This document shows, piece after piece, positions 2,749 through 30,421 of a stretch of DNA of 64,000 nt; within the stretch, counting starts at the first letter, position 1; every line of letters begins with the position of its first letter. A program made the translations under genes and the position numbers. The DNA comes from Edaphobacter paludis (GTDB lineage: Bacteria; Acidobacteriota; Terriglobia; Terriglobales; Acidobacteriaceae), in contig NZ_CP121194.1 in assembly GCF_039993895.1 (NCBI RefSeq), positions 1,426,001 to 1,490,000 of the forward strand, written 5' to 3'. The notes below the pieces were generated by a model, which was not told the origin of the DNA, did not search any database, and was given only the letters and a program-made list of their open reading frames with translations.

Positions 2749-2764
2749 TGTGATCGAGGTCACA
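2749..2764. promoter_or_regulatory. CRP/FNR-family palindrome, perfect TGTGA-N6-TCACA (site 1)
   Basis: TGTGA TCGAGG TCACA, a perfect palindrome in its ten fixed positions. It lies 57 bp before the permease start and 113 bp before the L,D-transpeptidase start, between divergent genes. The centre is 26 bp from the next site. It matches the E. coli CRP consensus core and is assigned by inference to the Crp/Fnr protein at 25662. Confidence 0.75.
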
Positions 2765-2774
2765 TTCAAATGAA

Positions 2775-2790
2775 TGTGACAGCGATCACA
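2775..2790. promoter_or_regulatory. CRP/FNR-family palindrome, perfect TGTGA-N6-TCACA (site 2)
   Basis: TGTGA CAGCGA TCACA, the second perfect copy in the same divergent intergenic region. It lies 87 bp upstream of the L,D-transpeptidase ATG at 2877. Having two sites suggests one per divergent promoter, or cooperative binding. Confidence 0.75.
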
Positions 2791-2876
2791 ATCCTGTGTG
2801 TAGACGCTCCCTTGGCGGATCGGGGGCGACAGACTTAGTCTTCTGGCAAGCTCCTCCAATCCGGCGGCGGCCTAAA

Positions 2877-4522
2877 ATGAAACTCGCTCTATGCATCCTC
2901 CTGCTGCTGAGTCGCCCTTGGAACCAAATGCACGCTGCTCCTATGACGGCGTTTCCGGAGTATTGCCATTCCATTCCTGCATCACTAAACGAGGAAGACT
3001 ATCTCCTGAGTGCAAAGATCGCTCAGAGCATCTTGTTGTTGCCGACGTCAGATGCGCAATTGCTGGGCGCCTTCTATAGAGCTTGCAGCGATGTTCCTGC
3101 CTGGGTATTGAACGGTAAAGTTACTCCTTCGGCGCTCGCCATGTTGCAGGTGTTCCGAGATGTGTCTGGAAGGGGATTAGATCCGGACGATTATCCTATT
3201 TTTCTCATACCGCCTCTGGGCAGTATGGAAACGACACCAAATTCCGTTGTCACTTTTACCGATTTTGAACTTCAACTCAGTCTTGGAGCGTTGCATCTTG
3301 CGGGTGATCTGCGATGTGGGCGGATCGATCCCCATGCTCTTCACGTCGATCTGCCTCACTCCTGTGAAGGCTTTCGGCCAGTTGAATTTGTGTGGAATCT
3401 TTCGCACACCCAAAATCCATCGATAGAGTTTGATTTCTTGGAACCAACGACTGCTGGATATCTCAGGACAAAGACTGCCTTAATAAAGTATCTAAACTTC
3501 GCTCGTACTCCTCAGACGGTTCTTTCTCCATTCCGTGGAACGGTGCATCCGGGGCAACTCTCCGAAAGCGTCGTAGCTTTACGAACGGCTCTGACCAGGA
3601 CAGGAGATCTCCCCGGCGTTCAAGATGCTAGTAACTCCTTGTATGACGATGCGTTGGCTGCTGCAGTCCGGTCCTTTCAAGTACGGCACGGTCTCATGCC
3701 AGACGGACTATTGACTACAGAGACATACAAACAGCTTGGAGTGCCGATGCAAGAACGCGCGGAGCAACTCGAACTCACACTAGAGCGGTGGCGTTGGTTT
3801 GAAAGGTCCTTTGCTCAACCACCCATCGTGGTGAATATCCCAGAATTCAGACTTCGTGCTTACGGAAGCGACATGCGGGTTGCACTTTCCATGAAGGTAA
3901 TCGTCGGCGGCGCTTACCATCGCAAGACTCCTGTCTTTGAGAATCAGAATCGTCCGTCATCTTTCGCCCATACTGGAATATCCCTCCGAGTATTCAGCGC
4001 AGCGAAATCGCACCAGCGATGCGACGGGATCCGAAATATCTTGAAAAACACGGGTATGAACTCGTACATGAACCTCGAGGCTCTGTTCGCATCCGGCAAC
4101 GGCCGGGAGATCAAAATGCTCTCGGCCTGCTCAAATTCTCCTTACCTAATGTGCATGACGTCTATCTTCACGGCACGCCGGCACAAAGTCTATTTGATAA
4201 GCCACGACGTGATTTTAGCCACGGATGCATCCGGGTCGAAGATCCAGCGGCTCTTGCAGTTTGGGTCTTGAGGAACAACCCTGGTTGGACACATGAGAAG
4301 ATCGAAGCCGCCATGTACGGTTCGGAGACACTGTCCGTTGCAGTGAGTCATCCGATTCCTGTTCTCATCGTGTATGGAACAGGGTTCGCCGCAGAAGACG
4401 GAGCTGTGTATTTTCTCCCCGATATCTACAACGAGGATGCGGCCCTGCGTGCTGCTCTCCGAAAATTGACGATGCACAGACAGGAAGAAATTCGCGCTAT
4501 CACCAGTGCAGTTCGCCCATAA
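2877..4522 (+). pseudogene. YcbB-like L,D-transpeptidase, interrupted by one frameshift
   Basis: Periplasmic peptidoglycan cross-linking enzyme that forms 3-3 links between diaminopimelate residues. From the ATG at 2877 there is a signal peptide (MKLALCILLLLSRP), an N-terminal region, a peptidoglycan-binding module (VRSFQVRHGLMPDG) and the start of the YkuD domain (IVVNIPEFRLRAYG). Around 3945-3970 the frame changes: frame one runs on to a stop at 4271, while the rest of the catalytic domain, including YLHGT and the active-site SHGCIRV, is read in another frame from about 3960 to 4522. The sequence at the join reads naturally as FRPYWNIPPSIQRSEI in the second frame. A one-base deletion or a sequencing error would explain it. 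If real, the enzyme lacks its catalytic cysteine. Two CRP-like palindromes lie upstream. Confidence 0.8.
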
Positions 4523-4621
4523 ACAGTAGGAGTGGAAGCCTCCAAGTTAATCCTTTGTTGGCGGTTGCCCCAATCTCCATCGAAGCCCTATGCTCACAAT
4601 TGAAAGAAAGAGGCTTAGTAG

Positions 4622-4639
4622 CCAACCCGCCGAGGTTGG
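4622..4639. terminator. Weak hairpin between convergent genes
   Basis: CCAACC and GGTTGG flank a 6-nt loop in the 140-bp gap between the convergent L,D-transpeptidase and universal stress protein genes. There is no clear T-run on either side, so a terminator role is a guess from position. Confidence 0.3.
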
Positions 4640-4662
4640 GAAGATAAAACCCGCTCTTGCTG

Positions 4663-5556
4663 TCAGCTAAGAGCGACTTCCTCATGTCCCTGCTTATGTA
4701 TGATCAGGACAGGGCATGGCGTATCTGTAATAATTTGCGGCACGAGCCCACGCATGAGATGTGTTGCAGTGGAGGAAGCGGTGTGTGCACCCATCACAAT
4801 CAGATCTGCGTTACGATCCGTCGCGAAATCAACGATTGCAAAGCCTGCGTTTCCTGGACTCATGTTCCGAAATGCGACGATTGGACTTGGTTGATCGGGA
4901 AGAATGTGTTCGAATGCCTTTTCGAATAACTGCAGATCGCTTTTTTTTTCTTTTTTAACGGGATCTTGGACATGCAATAAAGTGAATGCAGCCTGAAATT
5001 CACGAGCGATCATATAGGCATAAGCCGCTATTGTCGCTGTATCTGGATTGAGATCGCTAGCACAAACGATGTTGCTGGGGTGCCAAGCCAGATTGCTCGG
5101 AGATTGCGTGACAGGGCCAATAACCAACACGGGGCAGGGTGAATTTCGCAATAGAGCCTCCGCATCCGACCCAAACAATAGACGCTCGATCCCGGTCTCG
5201 CCGTGGGTACCAAGCACAACCAGGTCAGCTTTCTCCCTATTCACTGCTGAGAGAACCTCCTCTTGTACCTTTCCCGTAACCGAGATTGTTCGGACGTGGA
5301 ATCCTTCAGATCGCAGCTCTGCTCCTTCCTGTTCAAGTTGCTGTTCGATCGCCTGTTGAATCGCATTACTAAGTCCCCCTTCATCAATAGGAGGGGCCGA
5401 ATGAACCTGCTGATTCACGTGCGTAAGCAAGATCTGTGCGTTATAACGAGTGGCAATGCTCTTGCCATATTCGATTGCGCGCCCAGAGACATCCGAGAAG
5501 TCAGTCGGGATGAGAATTCGCTCGAAGGTAATTTGGGCTGGTGCAGAAGTGATCAT
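4663..5556 (-). CDS. Universal stress protein, two UspA domains (first of three)
   Basis: Cytoplasmic tandem UspA protein of 297 residues. Domain 1 spans about residues 8-145 and carries a good ATP-binding motif G-x2-G-x9-G-S (GTHGETGIERLLFGS), followed by CPVLVIG. Domain 2 spans about 160-290; its glycine motif is degenerate (GAHTASSTATHLMRG), and it ends CPVLIIH. The N-terminus ITFERILIPTDFSDVS is the classic UspA first strand. An AGGGGA precedes the ATG at 5556. Proteins of this type bind ATP or other ligands and accumulate under growth arrest or oxygen limitation in many bacteria; the exact role is unknown. Two CRP-like palindromes lie 216 and 262 bp upstream. Confidence 0.92.
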   Translation of the reverse strand: MITSAPAQITFERILIPTDFSDVSGRAIEYGKSIATRYNAQILLTHVNQQVHSAPPIDEGGLSNAIQQAIEQQLEQEGAELRSEGFHVRTISVTGKVQEEVLSAVNREKADLVVLGTHGETGIERLLFGSDAEALLRNSPCPVLVIGPVTQSPSNLAWHPSNIVCASDLNPDTATIAAYAYMIAREFQAAFTLLHVQDPVKKEKKSDLQLFEKAFEHILPDQPSPIVAFRNMSPGNAGFAIVDFATDRNADLIVMGAHTASSTATHLMRGLVPQIITDTPCPVLIIHKQGHEEVALS

Positions 5557-5771
5557 CTTTTCCCCTTTCTATCGCTTTTGTCGAGCAAATTTCATCGCAC
5601 TGACTTCAACAAGTTAAGTTGAAGAATGCCCCTTGTCCGATTTACATCAACCCTATCTGCATCCGTGGACTGGGTAACTCCATGTGGCAGAGCTAACTAG
5701 CAGAACCTTCGCTATGCTTCAAATCCCTTCCGCTCTTATCTTTAATGTTGAGCGTCATTTCGCGACCGTTC

Positions 5772-5787
5772 GGTGATTTCGGTCACA
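5772..5787. promoter_or_regulatory. CRP/FNR-family palindrome, one mismatch (site 3)
   Basis: GGTGA TTTCGG TCACA, nine of ten consensus positions. It lies upstream of the leftward universal stress protein gene (start 5556), in a stretch from 5557 to 5934 with no convincing gene. Confidence 0.55.
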
Positions 5788-5817
5788 TCGCCGGACGAAG
5801 TCTCTGCTCTATATCGC

Positions 5818-5833
5818 AGTGATGCTGATCACC
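5818..5833. promoter_or_regulatory. CRP/FNR-family palindrome, degenerate (site 4)
   Basis: AGTGA TGCTGA TCACC, eight of ten consensus positions with both outer bases changed. Its centre lies 46 bp from site 3. Support comes mainly from that closeness. Confidence 0.4.
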
Positions 5834-5934
5834 GTAATCTCCCCAATTGCTCCATACGATCATTATGTCGGACCGAGGAGATACTTTCGTTCAACTGGAA
5901 TCTGCGATACGACCTGATTCGTCATGCCTTGTTT

Positions 5935-6198
5935 ATGGAAAAGTCTCTTTCCATGCCGCATGCTTTTCAGGACTTACAGTATCTTTGTGAAGAAATTGCC
6001 ACGGCTCTCCGTGAGCCAGGCGTGACGGTCTCAGAATCGCTGCTGTTCGGAAAGCCCGACGGAACCATAGTCTCGCGAAGCCAAGAACTGCAAAGCTCAT
6101 TCATTTTGATTCCACTTAAAATCAGAGAACGCACTTCTGCAACGAAGTCTGACAATGTCGCTGCGAATGTTATTAGGGTGACTTACAGAATGCGCTAG
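5935..6198 (+). CDS. Small hypothetical protein, doubtful
   Basis: An 87-residue open frame from the ATG at 5935, beginning MEKSLSMPHAFQDL. I do not recognise it. There is no clear ribosome binding site, signal peptide or membrane segment. The frame is open further upstream from a GTG at 5773, but that part overlaps two palindromic operator-like sites and is probably not translated. It could be chance. The following stretch to 6383 holds nothing I can identify. Confidence 0.22.
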   Translation: MEKSLSMPHAFQDLQYLCEEIATALREPGVTVSESLLFGKPDGTIVSRSQELQSSFILIPLKIRERTSATKSDNVAANVIRVTYRMR

Positions 6199-6383
6199 CA
6201 ATGCTAAATATCATTAGTATTGGATGGAGTTGTGGTCGTCAGACAGAGACTTCCAACGAAATCTTTCGATACTGGAAGCTGAATCTTCCGTGATCCTTCA
6301 GCTTCCGGCAGAGATCAATCGAAAAATGGTGTTGTCATCCAAGTAAAAATCCCTGTCACCAGAAGCTTTCGACTTATAAGTCT

Positions 6384-7985
6384 TTACGGGCCTTCTTGCC
6401 TGTCGTGCAATGCAAAGAAAGCCTTGAATAAGATGCGTGGATCGTGATATCCCTTGTATACGGGCGGTGGGTCCCTAGGCAGTCCCAGTAACGCATAAAC
6501 TGCAGTTTGTGCCGAGCGAATTGAATATTCTATAGTGAATACTACATCGTCCGGAAGTTCACAAAATTGTCCGACAAAGGCGAGATTCTTTGAGCGCTTC
6601 GGTACTACCTGAGGACGATCTCCTTTGGCTCGACATAAAAACTGGCTAGTAATGAAGGGCATCATACAGGGGATACAGATGCATTTACCTAAAATTTGTT
6701 GCGCATCAGACTCAATCCTCAGGTGACCCATAATTTCCGTCATAATCTCTCGTCCCGTACATGAAGACATAGGTTTCTTCACAAAATTTCCGGGTTTATC
6801 CACAAAGAGACCGTAGCCCCAAAAGACCTGAGTATCAGTTGGCTGTCCTATGAAATGGGGCTGCTGGGGTATGACGATCGATGCTAGCCAATTGGAGTCC
6901 GGAAACGTTACGAGGCCTCCTTCTCCAGGAATATTTCCTGTCATGTCTTTAACGAGACGAAAGAAAGTTGGATCGTAGAGTGTTGTGGTGAAAGAAATCC
7001 ATTTGGACTGGTCTATATGATCGGCGAAGGTTGCAGGACAGCCAAATTGCGGATGGCCATCTGCTATTTTTTCCCACAAAGCCCAAGACCCTTCTCTCGC
7101 CTTATTTTTTAGCACAGGCGCTAAATCCATGGATCCCAAACTAGAACTCTCTGTCATCGACCCCAAAGTAACTATGACCGAGTCTTTTCCTTTTATCAGG
7201 ATTTGTTGTTTGCGACCCTCGCACTGACAAGTAATGCGATCGACACGATAGCCTTCGGCATCATGACAAAATCCAAGATCTGTGACGCAGGTAGCATACT
7301 CAAATCGCACGCCGTGGGCCTCCAACCACCTCTGGAGCGGACGAATCATGGAGTCGTATTGGTTATAGGGGGTTCGCATGATCCCGCCGAGCGTGTTGAA
7401 TCCTGAAACCAGGTGGGTGAAGCGCAGCAGATAACGCTTGAATTCGACCGCACTGTGCCAGGGCTGAAAGGCGAAGGTCGAACACCACATGATCCAGAAA
7501 TCTGTTTCAAAGAATGAAGGTTCGAAATGATCGGAAATACTGGTGCGCCCTAGTATCATTTCTGGTTGGAGTTCGAGACGTTCGATCGCCAGAATATGTC
7601 CTTCGCTGAGTCCAAATTTAGGGGCATTTATCCTATGTCCCTCTCGAAAGAGGCGGGATTTCGACGAGATTTTCATCGCTCTGTTCCATTCGAAGATCTC
7701 TTCCGTGACTGTTTTGCTGTCATCGAGGGTTGGAATTGAAGAAAATAAATCATATGTACAGAGATATTTACTTTCGATCATTCGACCGCCACGTATAACG
7801 TAGCCATTTCTCGAGGTTCCGGCGGCGTCAAGGCTGCCGCCGATTTTCTCTGCCTCTTCGAACACGATGATGTTACCGCCCCGTACGTCTCCGTCGCGAA
7901 TGAGGAAGGCAGCCGCTGCAAGCGATGCGATTCCGCCGCCCACCAGGTAAATGAGAGAGTTCTTATCGGCTGAGTTTTGTAGCAT
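6384..7985 (-). CDS. ohyA: Oleate hydratase / MCRA-family flavoprotein
   Basis: FAD-dependent fatty acid hydratase of the myosin-cross-reactive antigen family, which adds water across the cis-9 double bond of oleate to give 10-hydroxystearate. The FAD-binding GxGxxG-like motif is at the N-terminus (YLVGGGIASLAAAAFLIRDG), followed by the family-typical IGGSLDAAG and GGRMIESKYLCTYDLFSSIP. The length of about 533 residues is slightly shorter than the 560-650 of characterised members but spans the whole fold. The ATG at 7985 is used; a GTG at 7994 is possible. It follows the universal stress protein gene at 8063 by 77 bp on the same strand and may share its promoter. Membrane-lipid or fatty-acid stress defence is plausible by inference. 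Confidence 0.9.
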   Translation of the reverse strand: MLQNSADKNSLIYLVGGGIASLAAAAFLIRDGDVRGGNIIVFEEAEKIGGSLDAAGTSRNGYVIRGGRMIESKYLCTYDLFSSIPTLDDSKTVTEEIFEWNRAMKISSKSRLFREGHRINAPKFGLSEGHILAIERLELQPEMILGRTSISDHFEPSFFETDFWIMWCSTFAFQPWHSAVEFKRYLLRFTHLVSGFNTLGGIMRTPYNQYDSMIRPLQRWLEAHGVRFEYATCVTDLGFCHDAEGYRVDRITCQCEGRKQQILIKGKDSVIVTLGSMTESSSLGSMDLAPVLKNKAREGSWALWEKIADGHPQFGCPATFADHIDQSKWISFTTTLYDPTFFRLVKDMTGNIPGEGGLVTFPDSNWLASIVIPQQPHFIGQPTDTQVFWGYGLFVDKPGNFVKKPMSSCTGREIMTEIMGHLRIESDAQQILGKCICIPCMMPFITSQFLCRAKGDRPQVVPKRSKNLAFVGQFCELPDDVVFTIEYSIRSAQTAVYALLGLPRDPPPVYKGYHDPRILFKAFFALHDRQEGP

Positions 7986-8062
7986 CGAGATCACGCTTTC
8001 TTTTCGTTCAGAACATTTTTATCGAGGTTTGAAGAATGACCATCGATTTGCTCATGGAATGC

Positions 8063-8989
8063 TCATAAGCACGTTGCCTGGTGCGGGTGTAATTTCGATG
8101 CGTAGGCGATCGTCAGTACCGAGCATGGAGACTCCGTGATGATACGGTACGCAATGTGATCGGGAACATGCGACGCGAGAATTGATGCCCGCTGAATGCC
8201 GAGGACAATTAGCCATGCCCTGTGCTGCCTAGCATATTCGCTGATTGCTTTTGCGACGTCGTTGCCATAGGTAACGCTGTAAATAGCAGGAGGATCTGCT
8301 GAGCTCTTTTCGATAGCGACGTGATGCAACGCCTCCGTCATGATCTGCGGAACGATTTGGCTTGGTGTGCCGGATTCAAGCGTTTCTGGGAGTACATGGA
8401 GGCAATGCAGTGGCGATTGTGTTGCCTTACAGAAAACCCCCGCATAACGAATTGCATGAGTCGTCGTGTGATCGAAGTCAGTCGCGAAGAGCACCGGGCT
8501 CTTACACTCATCTTGCATTGCTTGATCTGTCACATGAGGGCCTACCGTCAATACCGGGCATGAAGCTTCACGAAGGACGGTTTCGGCAGTTGAACCGAAG
8601 ACAATACGTTCAAACCCGTGGGGGTCGCTCGTTCCCAAGATAACCAGATCGTACTTGTTATGTGAAAGGGCCTTCAGGATTGTTAGGGATGGGATTCCAG
8701 TAGACATTGTCGTTTCGCATGTGACCCCCTCTTGTTTAGCTGTTGTACGGAGCCTTTCAAGTGATATTAGAGCGACTTTCTTAAGGGAGTCTAATTCAAG
8801 GATCTGACCTCTCCGCTCGGATGCAATAGCCTTGGGGTACTCAAAGACGTGCAGGATGGAAAGACTCGCTTTGAACGCTGTGCACACACGAAGGGCCACG
8901 GGGAAGGCAGCTTGCGCTGCCTCAGAGAAGTCACTCGCGAAAATAATTCGTCCAAACGTCCGTGCTGTTTCATTCTCTGAGGCCTGCAT
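8063..8989 (-). CDS. Universal stress protein, two UspA domains (second of three)
   Basis: 308 residues with two UspA folds. Domain 1 opens GRIIFASDFSEAAQAAFPVAL and its ligand motif is GTSDPHGFERIVFGST, where the second motif glycine is Asp. Domain 2 opens SPVLFATDFDHTTTHAI and has no standard glycine motif. AAGGAAC lies before the ATG at 8989. The missing glycine suggests altered or absent ATP binding. It is followed by the oleate hydratase gene on the same strand, probably one transcript. The nearest candidate operator is the perfect palindrome at 9285, about 300 bp upstream. Confidence 0.9.
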   Translation of the reverse strand: MQASENETARTFGRIIFASDFSEAAQAAFPVALRVCTAFKASLSILHVFEYPKAIASERRGQILELDSLKKVALISLERLRTTAKQEGVTCETTMSTGIPSLTILKALSHNKYDLVILGTSDPHGFERIVFGSTAETVLREASCPVLTVGPHVTDQAMQDECKSPVLFATDFDHTTTHAIRYAGVFCKATQSPLHCLHVLPETLESGTPSQIVPQIMTEALHHVAIEKSSADPPAIYSVTYGNDVAKAISEYARQHRAWLIVLGIQRASILASHVPDHIAYRIITESPCSVLTIAYASKLHPHQATCL

Positions 8990-9284
8990 ACTTGCCGTTC
9001 CTTTCTGTCCTGTTTGGAGATTTCATGAAAATGCATCGGATGTTTAAAATTGACATAGACCGACCTTTCCGGAATGCGCTAATTCCCTCGGTCGGCTGGC
9101 TTGATACGATGATGTATACTCCGCGAAGTCGGGAAGGAATTGAGTCTTCGCGAATCGTCTTTCGACACCATCGTGATGTAAAAGTGTGAAGTGTTTCTAG
9201 ACTTCGGTCCGGCAATCAGGATATACACAGGAGTTAATCGTGGTCACCTCCGCATTCAACGTATGAGGCGACCAGAGATCATGC

Positions 9285-9300
9285 TGTGACCGCCGTCACA
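9285..9300. promoter_or_regulatory. CRP/FNR-family palindrome, perfect TGTGA-N6-TCACA (site 5)
   Basis: TGTGA CCGCCG TCACA, all ten fixed positions match. It lies 296 bp upstream of the universal stress protein start at 8989, with no intervening gene on that strand that I trust. Confidence 0.7.
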
Positions 9301-9888
9301 GAACGGCCGTTCGGGGAGGCTGTAGAGGTAAAACATGGCGGAGTAGAGCATGCCTAGGCAAATAAGAGGGTTCATAAAGACCAGCGGAAGTACGGTTATC
9401 ATTCTCCCCACATCGGACTGCAGCGAACTGCACCTGATCCAAACCGACCTGACTGCTTCAACTGCAACGGCAGCAGCGTACACCCGCACACATCGCCTTG
9501 ACGAATCGTCCCAGGAAATATTGTCGCGGTCTTTGAAGAGCACTCCAACTGGTATGTGGATGGCTCGCTCGAGATGGTCTGTAGCAGGCGGGTTGTCCAT
9601 GAAAGTTAAGGTGCTGGTGATCAAATAAATCCCATAATCTCGCTCTCTATTCACCAACTAGGAAAGAGAGTGGACCTTAGTAAACCAGTGCGCGCCGACT
9701 GAGCAGCAAGAGGGATCTGCCCCGATGAGGAAGAAGAAGTCCGCAATTTTAATATTAACGAATCTTATCAATCGAAATGCAGCGTGACGTTACCAGGAGA
9801 GAAGCCAGGAATCAGCCGAGTAGTTGGTTGGAAGAGTTAGTTATTGGGATGCGGCACTTCGATCATGGCTATTGGCACCGCCCTCAAG

Positions 9889-9904
9889 CGTGACAGACGT
9901 CACA
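9889..9904. promoter_or_regulatory. CRP/FNR-family palindrome, one mismatch (site 6)
   Basis: CGTGA CAGACG TCACA, nine of ten positions. It lies 146 bp before the BON-protein ATG at 10050 and would also control the downstream hsp20 gene if they are cotranscribed. Confidence 0.6.
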
Positions 9905-10049
9905 GCATAGACGAGAGGTTAGTCATATTTTGTAATCTAAGTTCCGCGCGCGGCCTCTGTTGGGCGGCCGGATCGGCTATGTCTGCTGTTCTCGATTCGG
10001 CAACTCACCGGTAACGAGGAATTTGATGTAACCCACCATAAAGTTATTT

Positions 10050-10701
10050 ATGAAAACCGGGGACCGACGTATTCAGGACGACGTGACACAACAAATTGCG
10101 TGGCAACCGGAGGTTCATTCTAAAGACATCAGCGTCAAGGTGCGTGACGGGAATGTAACTCTTACCGGTTTTTTCCACGGATATCTGGAAAAAATGGCCG
10201 CGGAACGCGCAACGCAGGGGGTCTACAGTATTGTCTCCTTAGCGAACGACATTGAAGTTAAACCAGTGGGGCATGCGCACCGCTCCTGAAATAGCACGTG
10301 ATGTAGTGGAAGCCCTCCGTCTCCATGCCGGTGTGCCAGACAAGAAAATCAAAGTTATTGTCGCCAATGGCTTCGTAACCTTGACCGGAACTTCGGACTG
10401 GCACCACGAACTGGAAAATGCGGAGATTGCGGCACATTCGGTCAATGGAGTACGCGGCATCGTGAATATCCTGGAGATCAAGCCGTGAGCCTCCAGTCAA
10501 CAGGTGCGCGAGAATATCGAGGACGCGCTTCGGCGCATGGTCGATCTTGACGCGCGTTCCATGTCTGTGGAGACAAGCGACGGAACGGTAACGCTTTACG
10601 GAAATGTACATTCCTGGTCCGAGCTCGAAAAGGCTGAACGCGCTGCCTGTCAGGCCCCCGGTGTCCAGCAAGTATCCAATCATCTGACGATTCACCCTTA
10701 G
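10050..10701 (+). pseudogene. Triple BON-domain protein split by a frameshift and an in-frame stop
   Basis: Three consecutive BON domains (each about 65 residues, with a VTLTG or VTLYG strand) make up what is normally one OsmY-like protein of about 217 residues, thought to bind membranes or periplasmic structures during stress. Domain 1 (10050-10270) runs into a TGA at 10287 after a GGGG run at 10268-10271. Removing one G continues directly into domain 2 (MRTAPEIARDVVEALRLHAG). Domain 2 ends at a TGA at 10486-10488, and domain 3 (VRENIEDALRRMVDLDARS) continues in the same frame straight after it. So there is one indel plus one nonsense codon. Both could be decay or sequence error; three separate small proteins are less likely because domain 3 lacks a proper start. 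No signal peptide is seen. Confidence 0.8.
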
Positions 10702-10777
10702 GCTCTTCACAGTTGGAAGGTTGCTGGCCCAGCATTGATGATTCTCATCATTTGTCCAAAAAAAAGGAGAAAGAAAC

Positions 10778-11296: not shown

Positions 11297-11314
11297 AGCA
11301 ATTTGTGATATCCC

Positions 11315-11353
11315 GAAAGGCGCCGGCTTCCGTGAGGCTGGCGCTTCTTTTTG
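11315..11353 (+). terminator. Rho-independent terminator after hsp20
   Basis: A GC-rich hairpin (AAGGCGCCGGC pairing imperfectly with GGCTGGCGCTT) is followed by a run of five T, starting 19 bp after the hsp20 stop codon. Confidence 0.65.
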
Positions 11354-11499
11354 AATGGGACATTCATCCATGGATGGTTTGCTCCGGCATCATAGCAAGA
11401 GACAAACGGAGCCCCTCAAGCGTAGCCCTAAGTGGATTCTGCAAACCAACAGAGTCTATGTTTCTCTCTGAAGAGAGACAGGCTAACGGGCTATTGTGT

Positions 11500-21325: not shown

Positions 21326-21341
21326 GGTGACGACCATCACA
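21326..21341. promoter_or_regulatory. CRP/FNR-family palindrome, one mismatch (site 9)
   Basis: GGTGA CGACCA TCACA, nine of ten positions. It lies in the 370-bp gap between the leftward universal stress protein (start 21239) and the rightward histidine kinase (start 21610), closer to the former. Nothing else is recognised in this gap. Confidence 0.6.
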
Positions 21342-21609
21342 TTGGTCAAAGAAGCTCTTGGGTTTCCTGAGATTTATTAGTCTTACATCCTCTTCTCTTG
21401 GTGCAGATCAGTTGAAACCACAATGAAGGTCACCTCTTAATGGAGAGGTTCAGGTACTCGAACGTGATATACCTCTTCCCGATGGTAGAGTGCCGACGAT
21501 CACAGGTGCATGAAGCTCGGAGTAACGCTTGATTTCGGGTCATGTCGAAGGATTGTCTATATTACGGAAGTAGCAGTAAAATGCACAGCTATGACGTCCC
21601 TGTGTGAAA

Positions 21610-23565: not shown

Positions 23566-23576
23566 TGAAAATCACG
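23561..23576. promoter_or_regulatory. CRP/FNR-family palindrome overlapping the kinase stop (site 10)
   Basis: TGTGA TGAAAA TCACG, nine of ten positions. It overlaps the kinase stop codon and lies 43 bp before the TTG start of the receiver gene. It could give the receiver its own promoter, but the coding overlap lowers confidence. Confidence 0.45.
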
Positions 23577-23618
23577 TCAGCATGTCATTGTCTGCTGTAA
23601 GACTAGGAGTTGAATTAG

Positions 23619-24044
23619 TTGAAATACGGCAGGCCTATTGTGCAATCTAATCAGATTTCCAGCCTTCGACGGGTCATACTGGTCGCGGACGATAAGCAAA
23701 GCAGCCGCGACCTTCTACACGCCATTCTCGACGACAAATATGTAGTGGTGGAGGCTTCCGACGGGGAAGAGGCTCTTCTGATGGCTTTTGAATCTATCCC
23801 TCACCTGGTGATTTTGGATATTCACATGCCGAAGAGGGATGGATTTGGCGTAGTGACAGAGTTGCGAAAAGAACCGGCTCTGCAGAATGTCCCAATCATG
23901 GCGCTGACGGCAAGCGCTTCGCTAGATGAGAAAGACAAAATCATGAATTCTGGCTTTGATGCGTGTTTTGTCAAGCCAATCGGACCCGCAAAACTGCGGG
24001 AGGCTGTAGCTGCTTTGCTGCAGAAAAAATCGTTAATTACGTAG
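23619..24044 (+). CDS. Single-domain response regulator (receiver only)
   Basis: 141 residues that are all receiver domain: acidic pair in LVADDKQSS, phospho-acceptor Asp in LVILDIHMPKRDG, Thr in IMALTASAS and Lys in CFVKPIG. There is no output domain, so it probably acts by protein contact or phosphorelay with the upstream kinase. The start is a TTG, chosen because AGGAG lies nine bases before it and no ATG or GTG precedes the conserved first strand. It ends overlapping, tail to tail, the 3' end of the leftward NtrC-type gene by 12 bp. Confidence 0.9.
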   Translation: MKYGRPIVQSNQISSLRRVILVADDKQSSRDLLHAILDDKYVVVEASDGEEALLMAFESIPHLVILDIHMPKRDGFGVVTELRKEPALQNVPIMALTASASLDEKDKIMNSGFDACFVKPIGPAKLREAVAALLQKKSLIT

Positions 24045-25469
24045 ACCGAAGTCGTCGACTTGACGCTCCAGACTGTATTTCTTCAGCTTATAGCGAAACG
24101 CATCTCGGCCGATTCCTAGCCGCCGAGCAGCTTGCGATTGATTTCCGCCTGCCTCGGAGAGTGCGCGAGCGATAAGTTGCGATTCGTGTGCAGCCAATTT
24201 CGAACCGCCAGGGTCATTACTTAAATTGAATTCGGCATGAGAAGTGGCGGGCATCTCAAATATCCCATCGGGATGCCCCAGCCATGATTTACAGGCCTGT
24301 ACCATCCGCTCGGGTAGATCCGGCACATCAATTCGATCGCCAGTTGCCATCATGCAGGCATGACCGATAGCATGTTCAAGTTCGCGCACGTTTCCAGGCC
24401 AGGTATAGCGTTCCAACAGAATCATGGCTCGGGGCGCTATGCCGTGAATGGGCTTGCCGTACTCCTCAGAAAAGCGTTGCACGAAATGCCGGACGAGCAA
24501 GGGCAAATCTTCCATTCTCTCCTGCAAACTGGGAGCGACAATTTCAACCATCGACAAACGATAGTACAGATCCTCACGGAAGACTTTGTCCCGGATGGCT
24601 GATGGCAGGTTCTTATGTGTGGCAGCAATGATACGGACATTCACTCGGCGACAATCGAGTGAACCGACGCGGGTAATCTCCTGGTTCTGAACCGCTCGCA
24701 ACAATTTGGCCTGGGTAGACATTGGCATGTCGCCAATTTCATCTAGAAAAAGTGTTCCTTGATCCGCAAGCTCGAAAAGGCCGGTTTTGTCGCGATCCGC
24801 TCCGGTAAATGAACCTCGTACATGTCCGAATAATTCACTTTCAAAGAGGGTCTCTACGACAGCAGAACAATTCAGAACAACGAATCTTCCTTTTACTCCA
24901 CTCAGACGATGCAGTGCTTGTGCCAGCAGATCTTTGCCAGAGCCGGTTTGGCCATTGATGAGCAACGAACGATAGTGCGGTGCGACTCTCTGCAACCTAG
25001 CAAAGATATCCCACATTAGGGGACTCCTTGCAATCAGGCCTTCAAATTTCACAACATCAGGTCTGGAAGCATCAGCGTTTAGCGCACTCTGTCTCCGCTG
25101 TGCAGTCTCCAGCAGCCTATTCACTCGATCCCTAAGAAGAGATAATTGCACCGGTTTTTCGAGGTAATCTGCGGCCCCGTTACGAATAGCCTCGACCGCA
25201 GTTTCTGTTGTGTAGTGCGCTGTCATAAGAATGACATCAATTGCCGGATCAGTCATCATCACCCGGTCTAACACTTCCAGGCCGCTGAGACGGGGCATAA
25301 CAAGATCAGTAATGACGAGACGAGGGCGTAGCTTTCGAACGAGTTCCAGCCCCACTTCGGGACTACTGGCTGTATGGATCTGGATTCCGTCGCGATCTAA
25401 TGCCGCTGAGAGCAGTTCAAGACTGCGCACATTGTCATCTATCACCACGATCTGTATGAGATCCGCCAT
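24033..25469 (-). CDS. NtrC-family sigma-54-dependent response regulator
   Basis: 478 residues from the ATG at 25469. The receiver (residues 5-120) has Asp in LVITDLVMPRLSG. The AAA+ sigma-54 activator domain (about 150-385) has Walker A INGQTGSGKD, the sigma-54 contact loop as GSFTGA (the usual form is GAFTGA), Walker B LFLDEIGDM, and WPGNVRELEHAI. The C-terminal Fis-type helix-turn-helix is QSQAARRLGIGRDAFRYKLK. It activates sigma-54 promoters on phosphorylation, presumably by the kinase at 21610. The first loop residue change (Ala to Ser after Gly) occurs in some active relatives. The frame is open 43 codons upstream, but that part lacks homology and overlaps an inverted repeat. Confidence 0.93.
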   Translation of the reverse strand: MADLIQIVVIDDNVRSLELLSAALDRDGIQIHTASSPEVGLELVRKLRPRLVITDLVMPRLSGLEVLDRVMMTDPAIDVILMTAHYTTETAVEAIRNGAADYLEKPVQLSLLRDRVNRLLETAQRRQSALNADASRPDVVKFEGLIARSPLMWDIFARLQRVAPHYRSLLINGQTGSGKDLLAQALHRLSGVKGRFVVLNCSAVVETLFESELFGHVRGSFTGADRDKTGLFELADQGTLFLDEIGDMPMSTQAKLLRAVQNQEITRVGSLDCRRVNVRIIAATHKNLPSAIRDKVFREDLYYRLSMVEIVAPSLQERMEDLPLLVRHFVQRFSEEYGKPIHGIAPRAMILLERYTWPGNVRELEHAIGHACMMATGDRIDVPDLPERMVQACKSWLGHPDGIFEMPATSHAEFNLSNDPGGSKLAAHESQLIARALSEAGGNQSQAARRLGIGRDAFRYKLKKYSLERQVDDFGLRN

Positions 25470-25513
25470 GGACCGCGTTGCCTCGAAAGATAAATCTATC
25501 TTAGACCCACTGC

Positions 25514-25553
25514 TGCGCCAGATGGCGCAATGAATTGGGCTTCTTGGCGCAAT
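25514..25553. promoter_or_regulatory. TGCGCCA/TGGCGCA triple repeat before the NtrC-type gene
   Basis: TGCGCCA-GA-TGGCGCA forms a 16-bp inverted repeat (25514-25529), and a third copy TGGCGCAAT begins at 25545, exactly 22 bp after the second and so on the same DNA face. It lies in the 192-bp divergent gap between the NtrC-type gene and the Crp/Fnr gene. A plausible operator for autoregulation or cross-regulation; the binding protein is unknown. Confidence 0.5.
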
Positions 25554-25661
25554 TAGCCGTCTGCTCGATGGGAAAACTATGCAAACTATTGAAAACAAAC
25601 GCTCTAGTTTGGCATTTTAGTTGCAGAGTAAGCAAGCGTAACTCCCCCTAGGAGCAGAGCG

Positions 25662-26351
25662 ATGCAAACCTGTCAGAACTGCACCCCAAAAAACCAGCAT
25701 GCATTTTGCCATCTTGGCGAAGACGCCAAAGCATTTATGGAATCTGTCTCGATCTCTACCGAATGCCCGCGTGGAGCGACATTCTTCCGGCAGGGAGACC
25801 GATGCGACGCTGTCTACATCCTCTGTCGAGGTCGAGTAAAGCTCACAACGACATCGAGGGAGGGACGGACGATGATATTGAGGGTTGTGGATGCCGGCTA
25901 TGTGCTCGGCCTGAGCGCGATCTTGTCTGAAGGGATTCATGAGGTCACCGTAGAAGCTCTGGAACCTTGTCAGGTCAGGGTCATCAATCGCAGGCCGCTG
26001 ATGGAAATGCTGGAGAAATACAGAGAAGCCAGTGTCGGCGCGGCAAGGGCTCTCGCCCAGGAATGTTGCAGTGGCTTTAATGAAGTTCGCCGGATTGCGC
26101 TTCCCGCGTCTCCGGCGGGTCGGGTGGCCCGCTTATTGCTCGACTGGACAGCAGAAAAATCAAATCCCCAGTGCACGAAGGGGGTGGCGTTACCACTCAC
26201 CCATGAAGAAATTGCATCAATGACCTCCACTTCGCGCGAAACGGTTACTCGTACACTGAGTCGCTTCCGCCGTGACAATTTGATCACCTTCAAAGGTGTT
26301 CTCCTTACGGTGATGCAGCCAGATGCGCTAGAACGTCTCTCCGCATGCTGA
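25662..26351 (+). CDS. Crp/Fnr-family transcription regulator with N-terminal Cys cluster
   Basis: 229 residues. An N-terminal Cys pattern (C4, C7, C16, in MQTCQNCTPKNQHAFC) precedes a cyclic-nucleotide-type beta-roll (about 22-120), a dimer helix, and a winged helix-turn-helix (about 150-215). C103 sits where FNR has its fourth cluster ligand (Cys122). So four cysteines could hold a [4Fe-4S] cluster, although spacing differs (C-x2-C-x8-C against C-x2-C-x5-C in FNR). The recognition helix TSTSRETVTRTL carries R192, E193 and R197, the same R-E-x3-R as E. coli CRP, which reads TGTGA; FNR instead has E-x2-SR. This predicts binding to the TGTGA-N6-TCACA sites in the region. The start is at the ATG following GGAGCAGAG. 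Confidence 0.92.
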   Translation: MQTCQNCTPKNQHAFCHLGEDAKAFMESVSISTECPRGATFFRQGDRCDAVYILCRGRVKLTTTSREGRTMILRVVDAGYVLGLSAILSEGIHEVTVEALEPCQVRVINRRPLMEMLEKYREASVGAARALAQECCSGFNEVRRIALPASPAGRVARLLLDWTAEKSNPQCTKGVALPLTHEEIASMTSTSRETVTRTLSRFRRDNLITFKGVLLTVMQPDALERLSAC

Positions 26352-26502
26352 ATCGCTCACATGTTGGAAAAGATCGGTATAGCGTGTTTCATCCCTAAGC
26401 GCATTGGTCTCCGAATCTGGACTTGCTGGGTAGGCAATCTATCAGGAAGAGCGAAACCCATAATTTGAAAACTTATTATTCGCCAAGTGTGAGGTAATCG
26501 GC

Positions 26503-27615
26503 ATGGCAACAATCGGACATCAATTGAGCACCGGCGTCACACCCGTTACGCCTATCTCCACCATGAAAGCATTGGTGTATCACATGTCTGGCAATGGTTC
26601 TGGCCAGCATGCATGGGAAGATCATCCAACTCCATCGATCAAAGGACCGGGAGATGCGATCGTTCGAATTACGACATCAACAATCTGCGGAACTGACCTT
26701 CACATCTTAAAAGGAGATGTGCCTTCTGTGACCGATGGTCGTATCCTTGGACATGAAGGCATCGGGGTAATTGAGCAACTCGGAGCAGGAGTTACAGAGT
26801 TTCAGGTGGGAGAGAAAGTCATAATTTCGTGTATTACTTCTTGCACAAAGTGCGAATTCTGTAGAAGAGGCATGCCATCGCATTGCCGGCATGGGGGCTG
26901 GATCCTCGGTAACACTATCGATGGGACACAGGCTGAATATGTGCGTATTCCTTACGCTGACGGAAGCCTCTATCACTTTCCTGCGGGCGGTGACGAAGAA
27001 GCTCTGGTGATGCTCAGCGACATCCTCCCAACCGCATTTGAATGCGGGGTCTTGAATGGGCAAGTGAAGCCAGGAGATTCAATCGCCATTGTCGGTGCCG
27101 GACCGATTGGGCTAGCGGTTCTGCTTACAGCGCAGTTTTATTCACCGGCTGCGATTTACGTGATCGACGTGGACGACAAGCGGTTGGCGGTTGCAATGAA
27201 GCTTGGCGCGACTGCTGTAATAAATGACAGAGATGGAAAAGCAGCTGCACGCTTCCTTGAGTTGACAGGTGGTGCCGGGGTTGATGTCTGTGTTGAAGCG
27301 GTCGGGATTCCCGAAACCTTTGGAATTTGTCAGGTTCTCATCGCACCGGGTGGACGAATTGCAAACATCGGCGTGCATGGCAAACCCGGGATTCTACATC
27401 TGGAACAGTTATGGGATCGCAATATCACATTGACCACACGTCTCGTCGATACCACGACGCTGCCATTGTTGCTGAAAGTTATTACATCAGGCAAACTGCA
27501 ACCGAGGAAGCTAGTTACCCACCGTTTTCATCTTAACGACATCCAAAAAGCCTATGAGACATTTGGCAATGCAGCTCAACAGGGCGCTTTGAAGATAATT
27601 CTGACGAGCAATTAA
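26503..27615 (+). CDS. Zinc-dependent alcohol dehydrogenase (MDR family)
   Basis: NAD(P)-dependent oxidoreductase of 370 residues. The catalytic zinc ligands are Cys in TICGTDLH and His/Glu in GHEGIGVIEQLGAGV. The structural zinc site is four Cys in CTKCEFCRRGMPSHC. The Rossmann motif is VGAGPIGLAVLL, followed by IDVDDKRL (acidic end of strand two, suggesting NAD preference). The substrate is unknown; close families oxidise short secondary alcohols or reduce aldehydes. GAGG eight bases upstream supports the ATG at 26503; MKALVYHMSG, 20 codons in, is the usual family N-terminus and a possible alternative start. It follows the Crp/Fnr gene by 151 bp. Confidence 0.92.
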   Translation: MATIGHQLSTGVTPVTPISTMKALVYHMSGNGSGQHAWEDHPTPSIKGPGDAIVRITTSTICGTDLHILKGDVPSVTDGRILGHEGIGVIEQLGAGVTEFQVGEKVIISCITSCTKCEFCRRGMPSHCRHGGWILGNTIDGTQAEYVRIPYADGSLYHFPAGGDEEALVMLSDILPTAFECGVLNGQVKPGDSIAIVGAGPIGLAVLLTAQFYSPAAIYVIDVDDKRLAVAMKLGATAVINDRDGKAAARFLELTGGAGVDVCVEAVGIPETFGICQVLIAPGGRIANIGVHGKPGILHLEQLWDRNITLTTRLVDTTTLPLLLKVITSGKLQPRKLVTHRFHLNDIQKAYETFGNAAQQGALKIILTSN

Positions 27616-27743
27616 CCGAAAAGATCCATGGACCCATCCCAAAAGTATGAGGAAGCATAAGGGTTTCTTACTAGGTCCTGATGCTACTAGCCTTAGCTGA
27701 TGGGCGAGCTATATGTTCTGTAGCTTTAAAGTGACTCGTACGA

Positions 27744-30287
27744 TCAAAGCAGTGCGTGCCGGCGATAGAACCAGGCCTTTACAATTTGCACGAGCACCAG
27801 ATATGTAGCGGTAAGAAGAGTAATCATGCCCAGTAGCGATATGGGCAACGGTGTAAAGCGCAGCAATCCTCCGAGTACAGTGTATGGCAGTACAACTGCC
27901 ACGGTGACGACCAGCAGTACACTAAACAACAACGCACGGCTGGGATGACTCTTAAGGGGATTGGCTTGGGTTCGGATCACAAACACTACGAGAGTTTGGG
28001 TCGCCAGAGATTCCACAAACCAACCAGTGTGGAAGAGAGACTCGTTTGCGGACGCATGAAACAACCAAAGTAATATACCGAAGGTCAGGAAATCATAGAT
28101 GGAACTGATTGGTCCGATAATCATCATGAACTGCCTGATAAATTCAATCCGCCATCGTTTCGGTCGTCGTTTTGCGGCCAAGTCAACATTGTCACTGGGG
28201 ATACTGACTTGCGACACATCATAGAGAAAATTATTTAAGAGTATCTGACTCGGTAGCATCGGCAAGAACGGCAGAAAGAGCGATGCGGCAGCCATGCTAA
28301 ACATATTGCCAAAGTTCGAACTGGTGCCCATGATGATGTATTTCATGATGTTGGCGAAAGAACGCCTTCCTTCTGATACACCATCGTTCACAACGGAAAG
28401 ATCTTTTTCCAAGAGGATAATCTTCGCAGCGTCCTTAGCTACGTTTACGCCATTCATGACGGAAATTCCAACATCTGCGGTATGCAGCGATGGGGCGTCG
28501 TTGATTCCGTCTCCCAGGTAACCGACAACGTGTCCGCGGCCCTTTAGGGCCAGGATGACCCTATTCTTCTGTTCAGGCGACATGCGGGCAAAGATAGCGC
28601 CGCTTTCTGCCTGATAGGCAATAGAGGCATCGTCCATCGCGTCAACCTGGTTTCCGATGAGAATGCGGTCCACATTAAGTCCTACTTCATGGGCTACCTT
28701 TTGGGTAACGTACTGATTGTCCCCCGTCATGACGATCACAGAAATGCCATTCTGCTTCAATGCTCCAAGGACGGAAAGAACTCCTTCTTTGGGTGGATCG
28801 AGGAACGCCGCGAATCCGACCAGTGTCATCGCATGTTCGGCCGTCACAGTATAGAAGCTCTGCTTTTTAACATTTGACTTTGCCACACCAAGTACGCGAT
28901 ATCCATCTGCGCTTAGCTTCTTAAGCGTACATTCTGCCTCAGCCCGTCGGCTGTCGTCGAACGGTTGGGGAACACCATCTATGGCGACCGTTTCGCAGAT
29001 TGCAAAAACACTCTCAGCCTCGCCCTTGGTGATGAGGCGGTAGTCTTCACCGTATCGCACCACGACTGAGAGACGCTTTCGGTTGAAATCGAAGGGGATT
29101 TCATCTATCTTTTCGTAACCCACTACGGAGGGGGCATCGTGCTTCAAAATGGCATCGTCAAGAGGGCTTTTAATACCCGCTTCAAAGTGACTGTTTAGGT
29201 AAATGAGTTGCAGCACATTCTCATTGTCGTGGCCTTGATAATCCACGTGCCGGTCAAGCACGATCTCCCCTTCGGTGAGAGTTCCTGTCTTGTCGGTACA
29301 AATAATATCGATGCTCCCAAAATCCTCGATAGCCGCGAGCTGTTTCACCAGAACCTTTTTCCTCGTCATACGCTTTGCTCCCTGAGCCAGGGTCACCGTA
29401 ATGATCATTGGCATCATTTCAGGTGTCATCCCGACTGCGAGAGCAGCCGCAAAGAGGAAAGATTCGAGCACGGGACGATGAAAGATGATGTTCACCATCA
29501 AGACGAAGAGGACGAGCAACAGGGTTACCCACGTCAGCATCATCCCGAAGTGACGTGTGCCTCGAGTAAATTCTGTTTCTGGCGGCCGCATCGCCAGACG
29601 ATGTGCAATTTCGCCACAGGCGGTGTGCTTTCCAGTGCGAACTATGATGGCGGTGCCGATACCCGTTTGGACGGCGGTTCCCAGGAAGACACTGTTACTT
29701 GCCTCTGCGATGCCGTGCTTCTCTTGAGAAAGATCAGCGACCGTCTTCTCGACCGGCAAAGACTCGCCGGTCAGCATGGATTCGCGCACATGGAGGTCCT
29801 TTACATTGATTAAGCGGGCATCCGCAGGTACAAGGTCTCCCGCCTTGAGTTGGATGACATCTCCAGGGACTAGTTCGGCTGTCCGCAGATCAACTAGTCG
29901 GCCATCTCTCGTCGTACGTGCTGTGATTGCAATCTGCTTCTGTATCTCTTCGACCGCATGACGAGCCTGAAATTCCATCAAAAAATTCAGAAGAACACTG
30001 AACATTACGATGGCGATGATAATCAGTCCACCGATATGCTCTCCAAGGACCAGGGATATCACACTGGCGATGACAAGGATGATCACGAGCGGACTAGTGA
30101 AGAAGCCAATAAAACTAAGTAAGGCGGTGAAGTGGTGTTCCTGATCCAGACTGTTAGGGCCATAGAGGCGAAGCCGCCGGTTGGCTTCTTCTGATGTCAG
30201 ACCATTGGAAGCTGTCTGGAGAATCTGAAGCAATTCCAGTAACGGCAGATCCCAGAAGTCAGCAAAAGCCTTTGGTTGAATTTCCAT
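27744..30287 (-). CDS. mgtA: Magnesium-translocating P-type ATPase (MgtA/MgtB type)
   Basis: Inner-membrane P3B-type ATPase importing Mg2+, 847 residues. It has an N-terminal cation-ATPase domain, a first membrane pair (about 60-105), an actuator domain with TGESLPVEK, membrane pair near 245-300, phosphorylation motif DKTGTLT (about residue 333), KGEAESVFAICE in the nucleotide-binding domain, MTGDNQYVTQKVA, and the hinge GDGINDAPSLHTADVGISV. The C-terminal six-helix part includes SSNFGNMFSMAAASL and NNFLYDVSQV, both characteristic of MgtA. It stands alone, with a perfect CRP-like palindrome 119 bp upstream. No Mg2+-sensing leader was recognised in the 5' region. Confidence 0.95.
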   Translation of the reverse strand: MEIQPKAFADFWDLPLLELLQILQTASNGLTSEEANRRLRLYGPNSLDQEHHFTALLSFIGFFTSPLVIILVIASVISLVLGEHIGGLIIIAIVMFSVLLNFLMEFQARHAVEEIQKQIAITARTTRDGRLVDLRTAELVPGDVIQLKAGDLVPADARLINVKDLHVRESMLTGESLPVEKTVADLSQEKHGIAEASNSVFLGTAVQTGIGTAIIVRTGKHTACGEIAHRLAMRPPETEFTRGTRHFGMMLTWVTLLLVLFVLMVNIIFHRPVLESFLFAAALAVGMTPEMMPMIITVTLAQGAKRMTRKKVLVKQLAAIEDFGSIDIICTDKTGTLTEGEIVLDRHVDYQGHDNENVLQLIYLNSHFEAGIKSPLDDAILKHDAPSVVGYEKIDEIPFDFNRKRLSVVVRYGEDYRLITKGEAESVFAICETVAIDGVPQPFDDSRRAEAECTLKKLSADGYRVLGVAKSNVKKQSFYTVTAEHAMTLVGFAAFLDPPKEGVLSVLGALKQNGISVIVMTGDNQYVTQKVAHEVGLNVDRILIGNQVDAMDDASIAYQAESGAIFARMSPEQKNRVILALKGRGHVVGYLGDGINDAPSLHTADVGISVMNGVNVAKDAAKIILLEKDLSVVNDGVSEGRRSFANIMKYIIMGTSSNFGNMFSMAAASLFLPFLPMLPSQILLNNFLYDVSQVSIPSDNVDLAAKRRPKRWRIEFIRQFMMIIGPISSIYDFLTFGILLWLFHASANESLFHTGWFVESLATQTLVVFVIRTQANPLKSHPSRALLFSVLLVVTVAVVLPYTVLGGLLRFTPLPISLLGMITLLTATYLVLVQIVKAWFYRRHALL

Positions 30288-30405
30288 CCCATATTCCCTC
30301 GGCTACTACTGTCGGATCCGTAGGCCACAGATTTAATTGTTTGAAAGGAGATTCTGGTTTTTGCCTCTGTACAAATGAGGTTAGCGTCTCAAACTATGCG
30401 GTTAT

Positions 30406-30421
30406 TGTGATCTTCATCACA
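30406..30421. promoter_or_regulatory. CRP/FNR-family palindrome, perfect TGTGA-N6-TCACA (site 11)
   Basis: TGTGA TCTTCA TCACA, all ten fixed positions match. It lies 119 bp before the mgtA start. The rest of the gap to the tRNA gene (30422-30972) contains a long inverted repeat listed next and nothing else recognised. Confidence 0.75.

Follow-up and report, generated by a model that had tools for sequence, protein, structure and literature searches.

CRP-type palindromes at class II promoter spacing cluster round the gene of a four-cysteine CRP/FNR-family regulator in Edaphobacter paludis

The DNA analyzed here, hereafter the window, is a stretch of 64,000 nucleotides from the acidobacterium Edaphobacter paludis (contig NZ_CP121194.1, genome positions 1426001 to 1490000; the genome is a single contig of 4,038,441 bases), and coordinates refer to it unless the genome is named. 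Its first 30 kb carry palindromes of the form TGTGA-N6-TCACA, a 16-mer with ten fixed bases, in the company of the gene 25662..26351 (+ strand), which encodes a regulator of the CRP/FNR family of 229 amino acids (aa), referred to below as 25662. A preliminary description had listed eleven of these palindromes over 28 kb, five of them perfect, had seen no good copy between 31 and 64 kb, and had read the whole as a coherent, physically clustered regulon of CRP type. We found all eleven at the positions given there: the copies at 2749, 2775, 9285, 18278, and 30406 match ten of ten fixed bases, those at 5772, 9889, 14269, 21326, and 23561 depart from the pattern by one base, and that at 5818 by two. 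Altogether, the window holds five perfect and seven one-mismatch copies; Markov models of the window (15 simulations for each order from 2 to 4) produced a mean of 0.5 to 1.3 one-mismatch copies and never a perfect one. When up to two mismatches are allowed, the window is not enriched (33 copies versus 28 +/- 5, with 21 of 100 shuffles reaching 33), so that the signal is confined to the good copies. A refined core, GTGAYN4RTCAC (full site form TGTGAYN4RTCACA), was derived from the good sites; it has 0 copies between 31 and 64 kb, where the initial pattern has one-mismatch copies at 32044 and 46581.

The genes among the sites include three tandem universal stress proteins (Usp; 4663..5556, 8063..8989, and 20358..21239, all on the - strand) and the Hsp20 small heat-shock protein (10778..11296, +). 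Next to the regulator gene are a histidine kinase with three PAS domains (21604..23565, +), a single-domain response regulator (23619..24044, +), and an NtrC-type response regulator with a receiver, a sigma-54 activation domain, and a Fis helix-turn-helix (HTH) domain (24033..25598, -), which is divergent from the regulator gene. Downstream of the regulator follows a zinc alcohol dehydrogenase (26503..27615, +) that has no site of its own, and then a magnesium-translocating P-type ATPase (27744..30287, -), which scores above the TIGR01524 cut-off.

A genome-wide scan for site density, proposed in the preliminary description, found the density uneven. Of the 10 perfect copies that the genome holds, 9 fall between genome positions 1406866 and 1456421, and the core occurs 44 times versus 8 for the reversed pattern, with 18 of the 44 in genome 1402976-1456421, that is, in 53.4 kb or 1.3% of the genome. 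Window positions 1..30421 form the right part of this island. The extent of 28 kb given at first is too small, since the run begins 23 kb before the window and the 53-kb island is accompanied by two satellite clusters with six core sites each (genome 1527984-1538221 and 2123694-2128572). The three clusters, totaling about 68 kb, hold 30 of the 44 core sites, and the other 14 are scattered, versus 8 in the whole-genome control. When 44 sites were placed at random in 20,000 trials, the maximum in 53.4 kb was 7 (binomial tail, 1e-22).

The sites also stand at a fixed distance from promoter-like elements. For this analysis, 57 core sites from the three clusters and from the islands of two relatives, genomes G044 and G040, were selected blind to the -10 feature, and their 114 flanks were scanned on both sides. 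The hexamer TANNNT was found at an offset of 21 (22 times) or 22 (11 times) from the 16-mer, hence on 33 of 114 flanks versus 1.5 expected (0.73 per offset over the 114 flanks). Taking this hexamer as a -10 element puts the site center at -41.5 or -42.5, which is the class II position of CRP/FNR activators, and the sites look like class II CRP/FNR-dependent promoters with a fixed -10 spacing. In E. paludis a strict -10 is present on 16 of 60 flanks, corresponding to 16 of the 30 cluster sites, and 14 of the 16 aim at a listed gene within 400 bp; among the eight island sites without one, six have a single-mismatch -10 at offset 21, which about one flank in seven would show by chance. We counted 16 copies of the composite GTGAYN4RTCAC-N22/23-TANNNT in the E. 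paludis genome (10 in the island, 3 + 3 in the satellites) and 0 in reversed form. None of the 30 cluster sites falls within a gene of a hand-made list, in which four starts were moved and a fragment open reading frame (ORF) over the 9285 site was omitted. It speaks for palindromic repeats or terminators that merely resemble operators that palindromes can form hairpins and that the window has an ordinary count of copies with two mismatches allowed, but the four central bases of the sites vary freely, the -10 spacing is fixed, and the cluster sites avoid the hand-listed genes, which makes such a sequence artifact a negligible prospect. Chance or base composition as the origin of the sites was rejected on the basis of the Markov models, the random placement, and the composite versus reversed counts.

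The individual sites of the window are arranged as follows. The perfect sites TGTGATCGAGGTCACA (2749..2764) and TGTGACAGCGATCACA (2775..2790) form a pair between a MacB/FtsX gene (-) and a peptidoglycan-binding, L,D-transpeptidase (LDT)-like gene (+); the first retains its core in G044, and the second has lost it by one base at the aligned G044 position. Two core sites follow at 5772..5787 and 5818..5833 (+), the latter with TACGAT at the -10 spacing and upstream of a Usp-like fragment. The perfect site 9285..9300 (-), with TACGTT at the -10 spacing, faces the Usp gene 8063-8989 at 296 bp and overlaps a DUF4015 fragment ORF (9256-9657), while the core site 9889..9904 (+), with TATTTT at that spacing, lies upstream of BON-like ORFs and of the Hsp20 gene. 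Further on, the core site 14269..14284 (-) has a near -10 (AATGAT) and is located 250 bp upstream of an acyl-ligase/acyl carrier protein/acyltransferase fusion (11500-14019), and the perfect site 18278..18293 (-), which has a near -10 only, is upstream of ORF 17692-18267, an HlyD gene (16390-17676), and a MacB gene (14297-16393). The core site 21326..21341 separates the Usp gene 20358-21239 (-) from the PAS histidine kinase (+) and shows a near -10 on both sides. The core site 23561..23576 (+) is upstream of the receiver gene 23619-24044 and keeps its core in both G044 and G040, and the perfect site 30406..30421 (-), with TAACCT at the -10 spacing, lies upstream of the mgtA-type P-type ATPase gene and keeps its core in G044. 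The sole perfect copy outside the island, at genome 2590485, stands between a 496-aa ORF (-) and a 1137-aa ORF (+) and has a near -10 (AAAACT) at class II spacing.

Some of the ORFs next to these sites are worth describing in their own right. The LDT-like gene (2796-4522) is split into two overlapping frames of 491 and 167 aa, which match one 549-aa homologue in G044. ORF 5773-6198 is fronted by two core sites, and its match to a Usp of G040 is confined to the C-terminal part of that protein; it is probably what remains of a usp gene that has retained its promoter. The reading frame 9256-9657 (-) gives a partial DUF4015 match; a full DUF4015 protein is present at another locus (L014:2739-4034) and a short piece in G040. 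Between 10050 and 10701, three BON-like sequences, recognized by eye, sit in separate short ORFs that are not all in one frame, and they represent either a decayed gene or separate small genes; their satellite counterpart is one three-BON protein (L060:8862-9530).

Turning to the regulator, 25662 matches PF00027, PF13545, and PF00325 above cut-off, which places it in the CRP/FNR superfamily (cNMP-binding barrel plus Crp-type HTH). Its recognition helix reads SRETVTR versus SRETVGR in Escherichia coli CRP and fits the R-E-x3-R type, with S191, R192, E193, T194, and R197 invariant in 20 of 20 aligned proteins, and this CRP-type helix is predicted to read the TGTGA operator. The protein further carries the arrangement C4-x2-C7-x8-C16 plus C55; these four cysteines are present in 30 of 30 aligned proteins (the window's own and those of 29 loci), and an alignment of 20 rows shows them as invariant. 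When 25662 is aligned to E. coli CRP, the equivalents of the cyclic AMP (cAMP)-contacting residues E72, R82, and S83 are replaced or gapped. The protein scores 65 of 266 bits against the CRP equivalog, 44 of 228 against the Fnr subfamily, and 60 of 300 against the FixK equivalog. The best PDB matches of the single protein are the E. coli catabolite gene activator, and the 20-row profile matches Aliivibrio fischeri FNR over its full length, with mycobacterial and E. coli CRP scoring higher. Its AlphaFold2 model (mean pLDDT of 80; 48 and 62 in the first two ten-residue blocks, which contain three of the cysteines) fits both CRP and holo-FNR structures at a TM score of about 0.8, the best fold being Mycobacterium tuberculosis CRP. 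FNR has three N-terminal cysteines and one central cysteine as cluster ligands, and its sites are TTGAT-N4-ATCAA, unlike the TGTGA-type operators here. Because the cAMP residues are replaced or gapped and the four cysteines are invariant, we deem 25662 likelier to be an FNR-like redox/oxygen sensor, putatively of the iron-sulfur (Fe-S) type, than a cAMP receptor. The label "CRP-type" given to the regulon at first thus suits the DNA site and the recognition helix but, given these same residues, probably not the signal.

A rival reading takes the window for a piece, dense by chance, of a standard genome-wide cAMP-CRP (catabolite) regulon. It would agree with the site consensus, which equals that of E. 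coli CRP, and with the best matches of 25662 to the E. coli catabolite gene activator by sequence and to M. tuberculosis CRP by profile and fold. It is nonetheless very unlikely in light of the concentration of 30 of 44 sites in three clusters, the altered cAMP-contacting positions, the low CRP equivalog score, and the annotated targets, among which no sugar-uptake operon appears; as the main explanation it was rejected on the clustering and the missing cAMP residues. Still more improbable is that another protein binds the sites. The genome does hold a second HTH_Crp_2 protein, at genome 1585599, the sole other one above cut-off, but its helix reads VQRSTVTV and not RETVxR, its translation has no C-x2-C-x8-C set, and it was rejected as the binder on its helix. 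As to the NtrC-type regulator, proteins of this type act from upstream of sigma-54 promoters, whereas the sites lie at a fixed distance from sigma-70-like -10 elements.

Upstream of the regulator gene we identified a sigma-54 type -24/-12 promoter, TGGCATTTTAGTTGCA (25610..25625, +), which ends 36 bases before the ATG and is the sole perfect match in the window to the sigma-54 consensus (TGGC-N8-TGC with invariant GG and GC). The form TGGC-N8-TGCW also occurs in G044 and G040, where, by eye and hand counting, it starts 47 to 52 bases from the ATG, and the E. paludis genome has a sigma-54 gene (PF00309 match). The third PAS domain of the kinase 21604-23565 best matches the PAS of a multi-sensor kinase (10jx), followed by the heme PAS domains of FixL and DosP, and three species keep the His that corresponds in the alignment to the proximal His of FixL. 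A cascade of the FixLJ-FixK kind is suggested by three of these parts: the sigma-54 promoter, the NtrC-type regulator divergent from the regulator gene, and the PAS kinase.

Genes that adjoin sites or stand in a same-strand run behind them were counted as the regulon's gene set. The island set comprises seven Usp, Hsp20, BON, a multiheme cytochrome c with Rieske and cytochrome b/c proteins, glycogen phosphorylase and isoamylase downstream of a Usp that has a site at genome 1424257, a pentapeptide protein, magnesium and heavy-metal P-type ATPases, the zinc alcohol dehydrogenase, oleate hydratase, and efflux and LDT-like genes. The satellite set contains Hsp20, BON, a formate dehydrogenase (above cut-off) with a NuoF-like protein, phosphotransacetylase, nitroreductase, Usp, and chaperonin. 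One of the two satellites, within genome 2118001-2138000, has its six core sites in 5 kb and encodes a Cpn60 chaperonin (540 aa), BON, Usp, and baeRF-family proteins, a phosphoribosyltransferase-hydrolase fusion, and an erythromycin-esterase family protein. The targets had been described as stress, envelope, or transport genes; a general envelope-stress label fits them less well than a hypoxia/dormancy set, to which the Usp, Hsp20, BON, multiheme cytochrome, glycogen breakdown, formate dehydrogenase, and phosphotransacetylase genes point.

A transcriptome of Acidobacterium capsulatum offers a comparison: according to the main text of the report, lowering oxygen from 10 to 0.1 umol/l raised the expression of usp genes, two of them specifically 7- and 56-fold, of one sensor kinase (84-fold), of glycogen genes and pta, and of adhP (up to 14.9-fold), while chaperones followed no clear trend (PMC11636273). 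The predicted regulon's gene classes agree with these low-oxygen classes, at class level. In that main text "fnr" occurs 0 times, and the passages on these genes name no regulator. With the same regulon and regulator, the signal might instead be nitric oxide (NO), redox state, or some other ligand, not oxygen; the cluster ligands of 25662 are themselves predicted, and FnrP, an Fe-S protein of the CRP/FNR family, is reported to respond to NO too. The target set and the A. capsulatum low-oxygen data, as given in the main text, best fit oxygen limitation, however, and we consider such a different signal rather unlikely.

Conservation in relatives was the second check proposed in the preliminary description, and some of the palindromes were kept: 7 of the 18 island sites can be aligned to G044, where six of the seven keep the core, and the 23561 site is kept in G040 also. 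A match to the regulator was found in 44 of 81 genomes, with orthologues in G044 (93% identical) and G040 (76%) and the others 29 to 44% identical. In G044, 18 of 28 core sites and 10 of 10 composites are on one contig (C11), and in G040, 9 of 21 core sites and 7 of 7 composites fall within 20 kb; in both genomes, which have true orthologues, the sites remain grouped about the regulator gene. The three islands differ in the order and content of their genes, but all are rich in Usp genes, with 7 (here), 7 (G044), and 6 (G040). At the regulator homologue loci (n = 29, of which 28 were usable, L035 being a contig end), a core site lies within 300 bp upstream in 3 and within 300 bp downstream in 12.

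On the scale of the genus, 62 congeneric genomes contain 211 composites versus 18 reversed ones, and 49 of these genomes were also searched for the regulator (homologue threshold, E <= 1e-20). The 30 genomes with a homologue have 178 composites versus 3 controls, and the 19 without a detected homologue have 13 versus 8 (Mann-Whitney p = 2e-6 between the groups); for the plain core motif, the difference points the same way but is weaker (p = 0.004; p = 0.39 for the control). Genome G015 has the most composites of the 62 (29, control 0), in several small site groups, together with four regulator matches, and its regulon may be expanded.

The island stands out in base composition and in its borders. 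Its GC content is 0.518, most outside stretches having 0.55 to 0.58 and one outside 5-kb block 0.512, and the satellite stretches have 0.530 and 0.546; the islands of the relatives are also lower (G044, 0.536 versus 0.580; G040, 0.511 versus 0.569). A tRNA-Leu gene (genome 1401699-1401787) precedes the first island site by 1.2 kb, and a tRNA-Gln (CTG) gene (window 30973..31046, -; genome 1456973-1457046) marks the right edge, 0.6 kb beyond the last island site. The G040 island starts beside a tRNA-Gln with the same neighboring genes, and in G044 the outermost site is about 5 kb away from tRNA-Gly and tRNA-Cys. As direct repeats, the two tRNA genes of the E. paludis island yielded just 11- to 12-base matches, which is chance level, no integrase was found among the island proteins scanned (part of the ORFs), and the left flank gave no alignment to the examined pieces of G040 or G044. 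Since neither tRNA repeats nor an integrase were found, mobility of the island is only suggested.

Our preferred explanation, to which we assign a probability of about 0.72, is a local, self-contained activator regulon, in which the palindromes are predicted operators of 25662 that act by class II activation, probably at low oxygen. The first impression of a coherent, physically clustered regulon is well supported by the clustering, the geometry, and the association of the composite with the regulator, and 25662 most likely governs it. A 25662 dimer would bind the palindromes via its CRP-like recognition helix and, many sites being centered at -41.5/-42.5 of a promoter with a -10 element, would recruit RNA polymerase there. 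The protein would probably be active when an Fe-S cluster on Cys4, Cys7, Cys16, and Cys55 is intact, i.e., at low oxygen, and would then turn on the Usp, Hsp20/BON, P-type ATPase, multiheme cytochrome, cytochrome b/Rieske, and glycogen breakdown genes and, in the satellites, the formate dehydrogenase-like and phosphotransacetylase genes. The sigma-54 promoter would serve the regulator gene itself, with the divergently oriented NtrC-type protein and the PAS kinase as the most likely drivers, and the predicted operator upstream of the kinase gene would add positive feedback. Computation shows the clustering, the promoter geometry, the conservation, and the association with the regulator; from these, binding, activation, the Fe-S cluster, the oxygen/redox signal, and the sigma-54 step are inferred.

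Several results weigh against this explanation. A strict -10 at the right spacing was found at just 16 of the 30 cluster sites, and the pair 2749/2775 has neither a strict nor a single-mismatch -10 at class II spacing. The best sequence and fold matches of 25662 are CRP proteins, with FNR lower, C55 is not at the place of the fourth FNR ligand, and the N-terminal spacing is x8 where FNR has x5. The third PAS domain has Met at the FixL distal Arg position, and the spelt-out sigma-54 consensus (<=1 mismatch) is upstream of the gene at 0 of the 29 homologue loci, including those of G044 and G040, which limits the claim of a sigma-54 step to at most three species. On the comparative side, just 7 of 18 island sites are alignable to a relative; G017 and G046 (the latter 63% complete) have 5 composites each and no detected homologue, whereas G021 and G030 have a homologue and zero composites; the regulator search left out 13 of the 62 genomes, some of which have several composites (G088, 9); and the genomes share descent, so that the composite counts are not independent.

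A broader view, which we hold tentatively and at somewhat less than even odds, is that of a portable low-oxygen survival program: a tRNA-bounded island equipped with a sensor kinase of its own, an NtrC/sigma-54 step, and an FNR-like activator with four cysteines and CRP-type DNA specificity. On this view, species would swap genes within the island but retain the class II promoter, and whatever gene came to lie downstream of such a promoter would be drawn into the regulon. Low-oxygen survival across much of the genus might then depend on this one regulator subfamily and composite promoter. Soils are rich in Acidobacteria, some of which live at nanomolar oxygen; for their low-oxygen response, the finding supplies a candidate regulator, a target list, and a testable cascade. 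The promoter signature is precise enough to search any acidobacterial genome, and the regulon is an example of one that stays physically clustered while its gene content reshuffles. Literature searches, at the level of listings and abstract starts, returned no publication on it.

Among known systems, the lxa locus of Burkholderia cenocepacia, described as having about 50 genes with six Usp and an alpha-crystallin (PMC6127331, PMC9733578, PMC3759415), likewise clusters usp, small heat-shock, and metabolic genes. A CRP/FNR-family (Anr/FixK-like) protein is discussed as its regulator, a FixLJ-FixK link is reported in B. dolosa, and low-oxygen induction is reported for lxa. The lxa locus belongs to another phylum, and in E. 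paludis the regulator is inside the cluster, the site is TGTGA-type, and a sigma-54 promoter stands beside an NtrC-type regulator. DosR of M. tuberculosis is a NarL/LuxR-type response regulator, not a CRP/FNR protein, and its sites differ. Its dormancy regulon, described with 48 genes and 10 Usp (PMC6127331), is likewise a Usp-rich hypoxia regulon with alpha-crystallin. The FixLJ-FixK systems of rhizobia, Caulobacter, and Burkholderia likewise join a PAS kinase with a FixL-like PAS, a response regulator, and a CRP/FNR-family activator; the candidate response regulator here is NtrC-type with a sigma-54 promoter, in place of FixJ, which is LuxR-type, and the FixK score is 60 versus 300. Bacillus subtilis Fnr is an Fe-S CRP/FNR regulator that reads TGTGA-N6-TCACA, like the sites here, but its cysteines are C-terminal, whereas those of 25662 are N-terminal with one in the barrel. 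What lies in E. paludis is a real, clustered class II CRP/FNR-type regulon, kin to lxa and to the Anr/FixK-type regulons, with its parts in an uncommon assembly.

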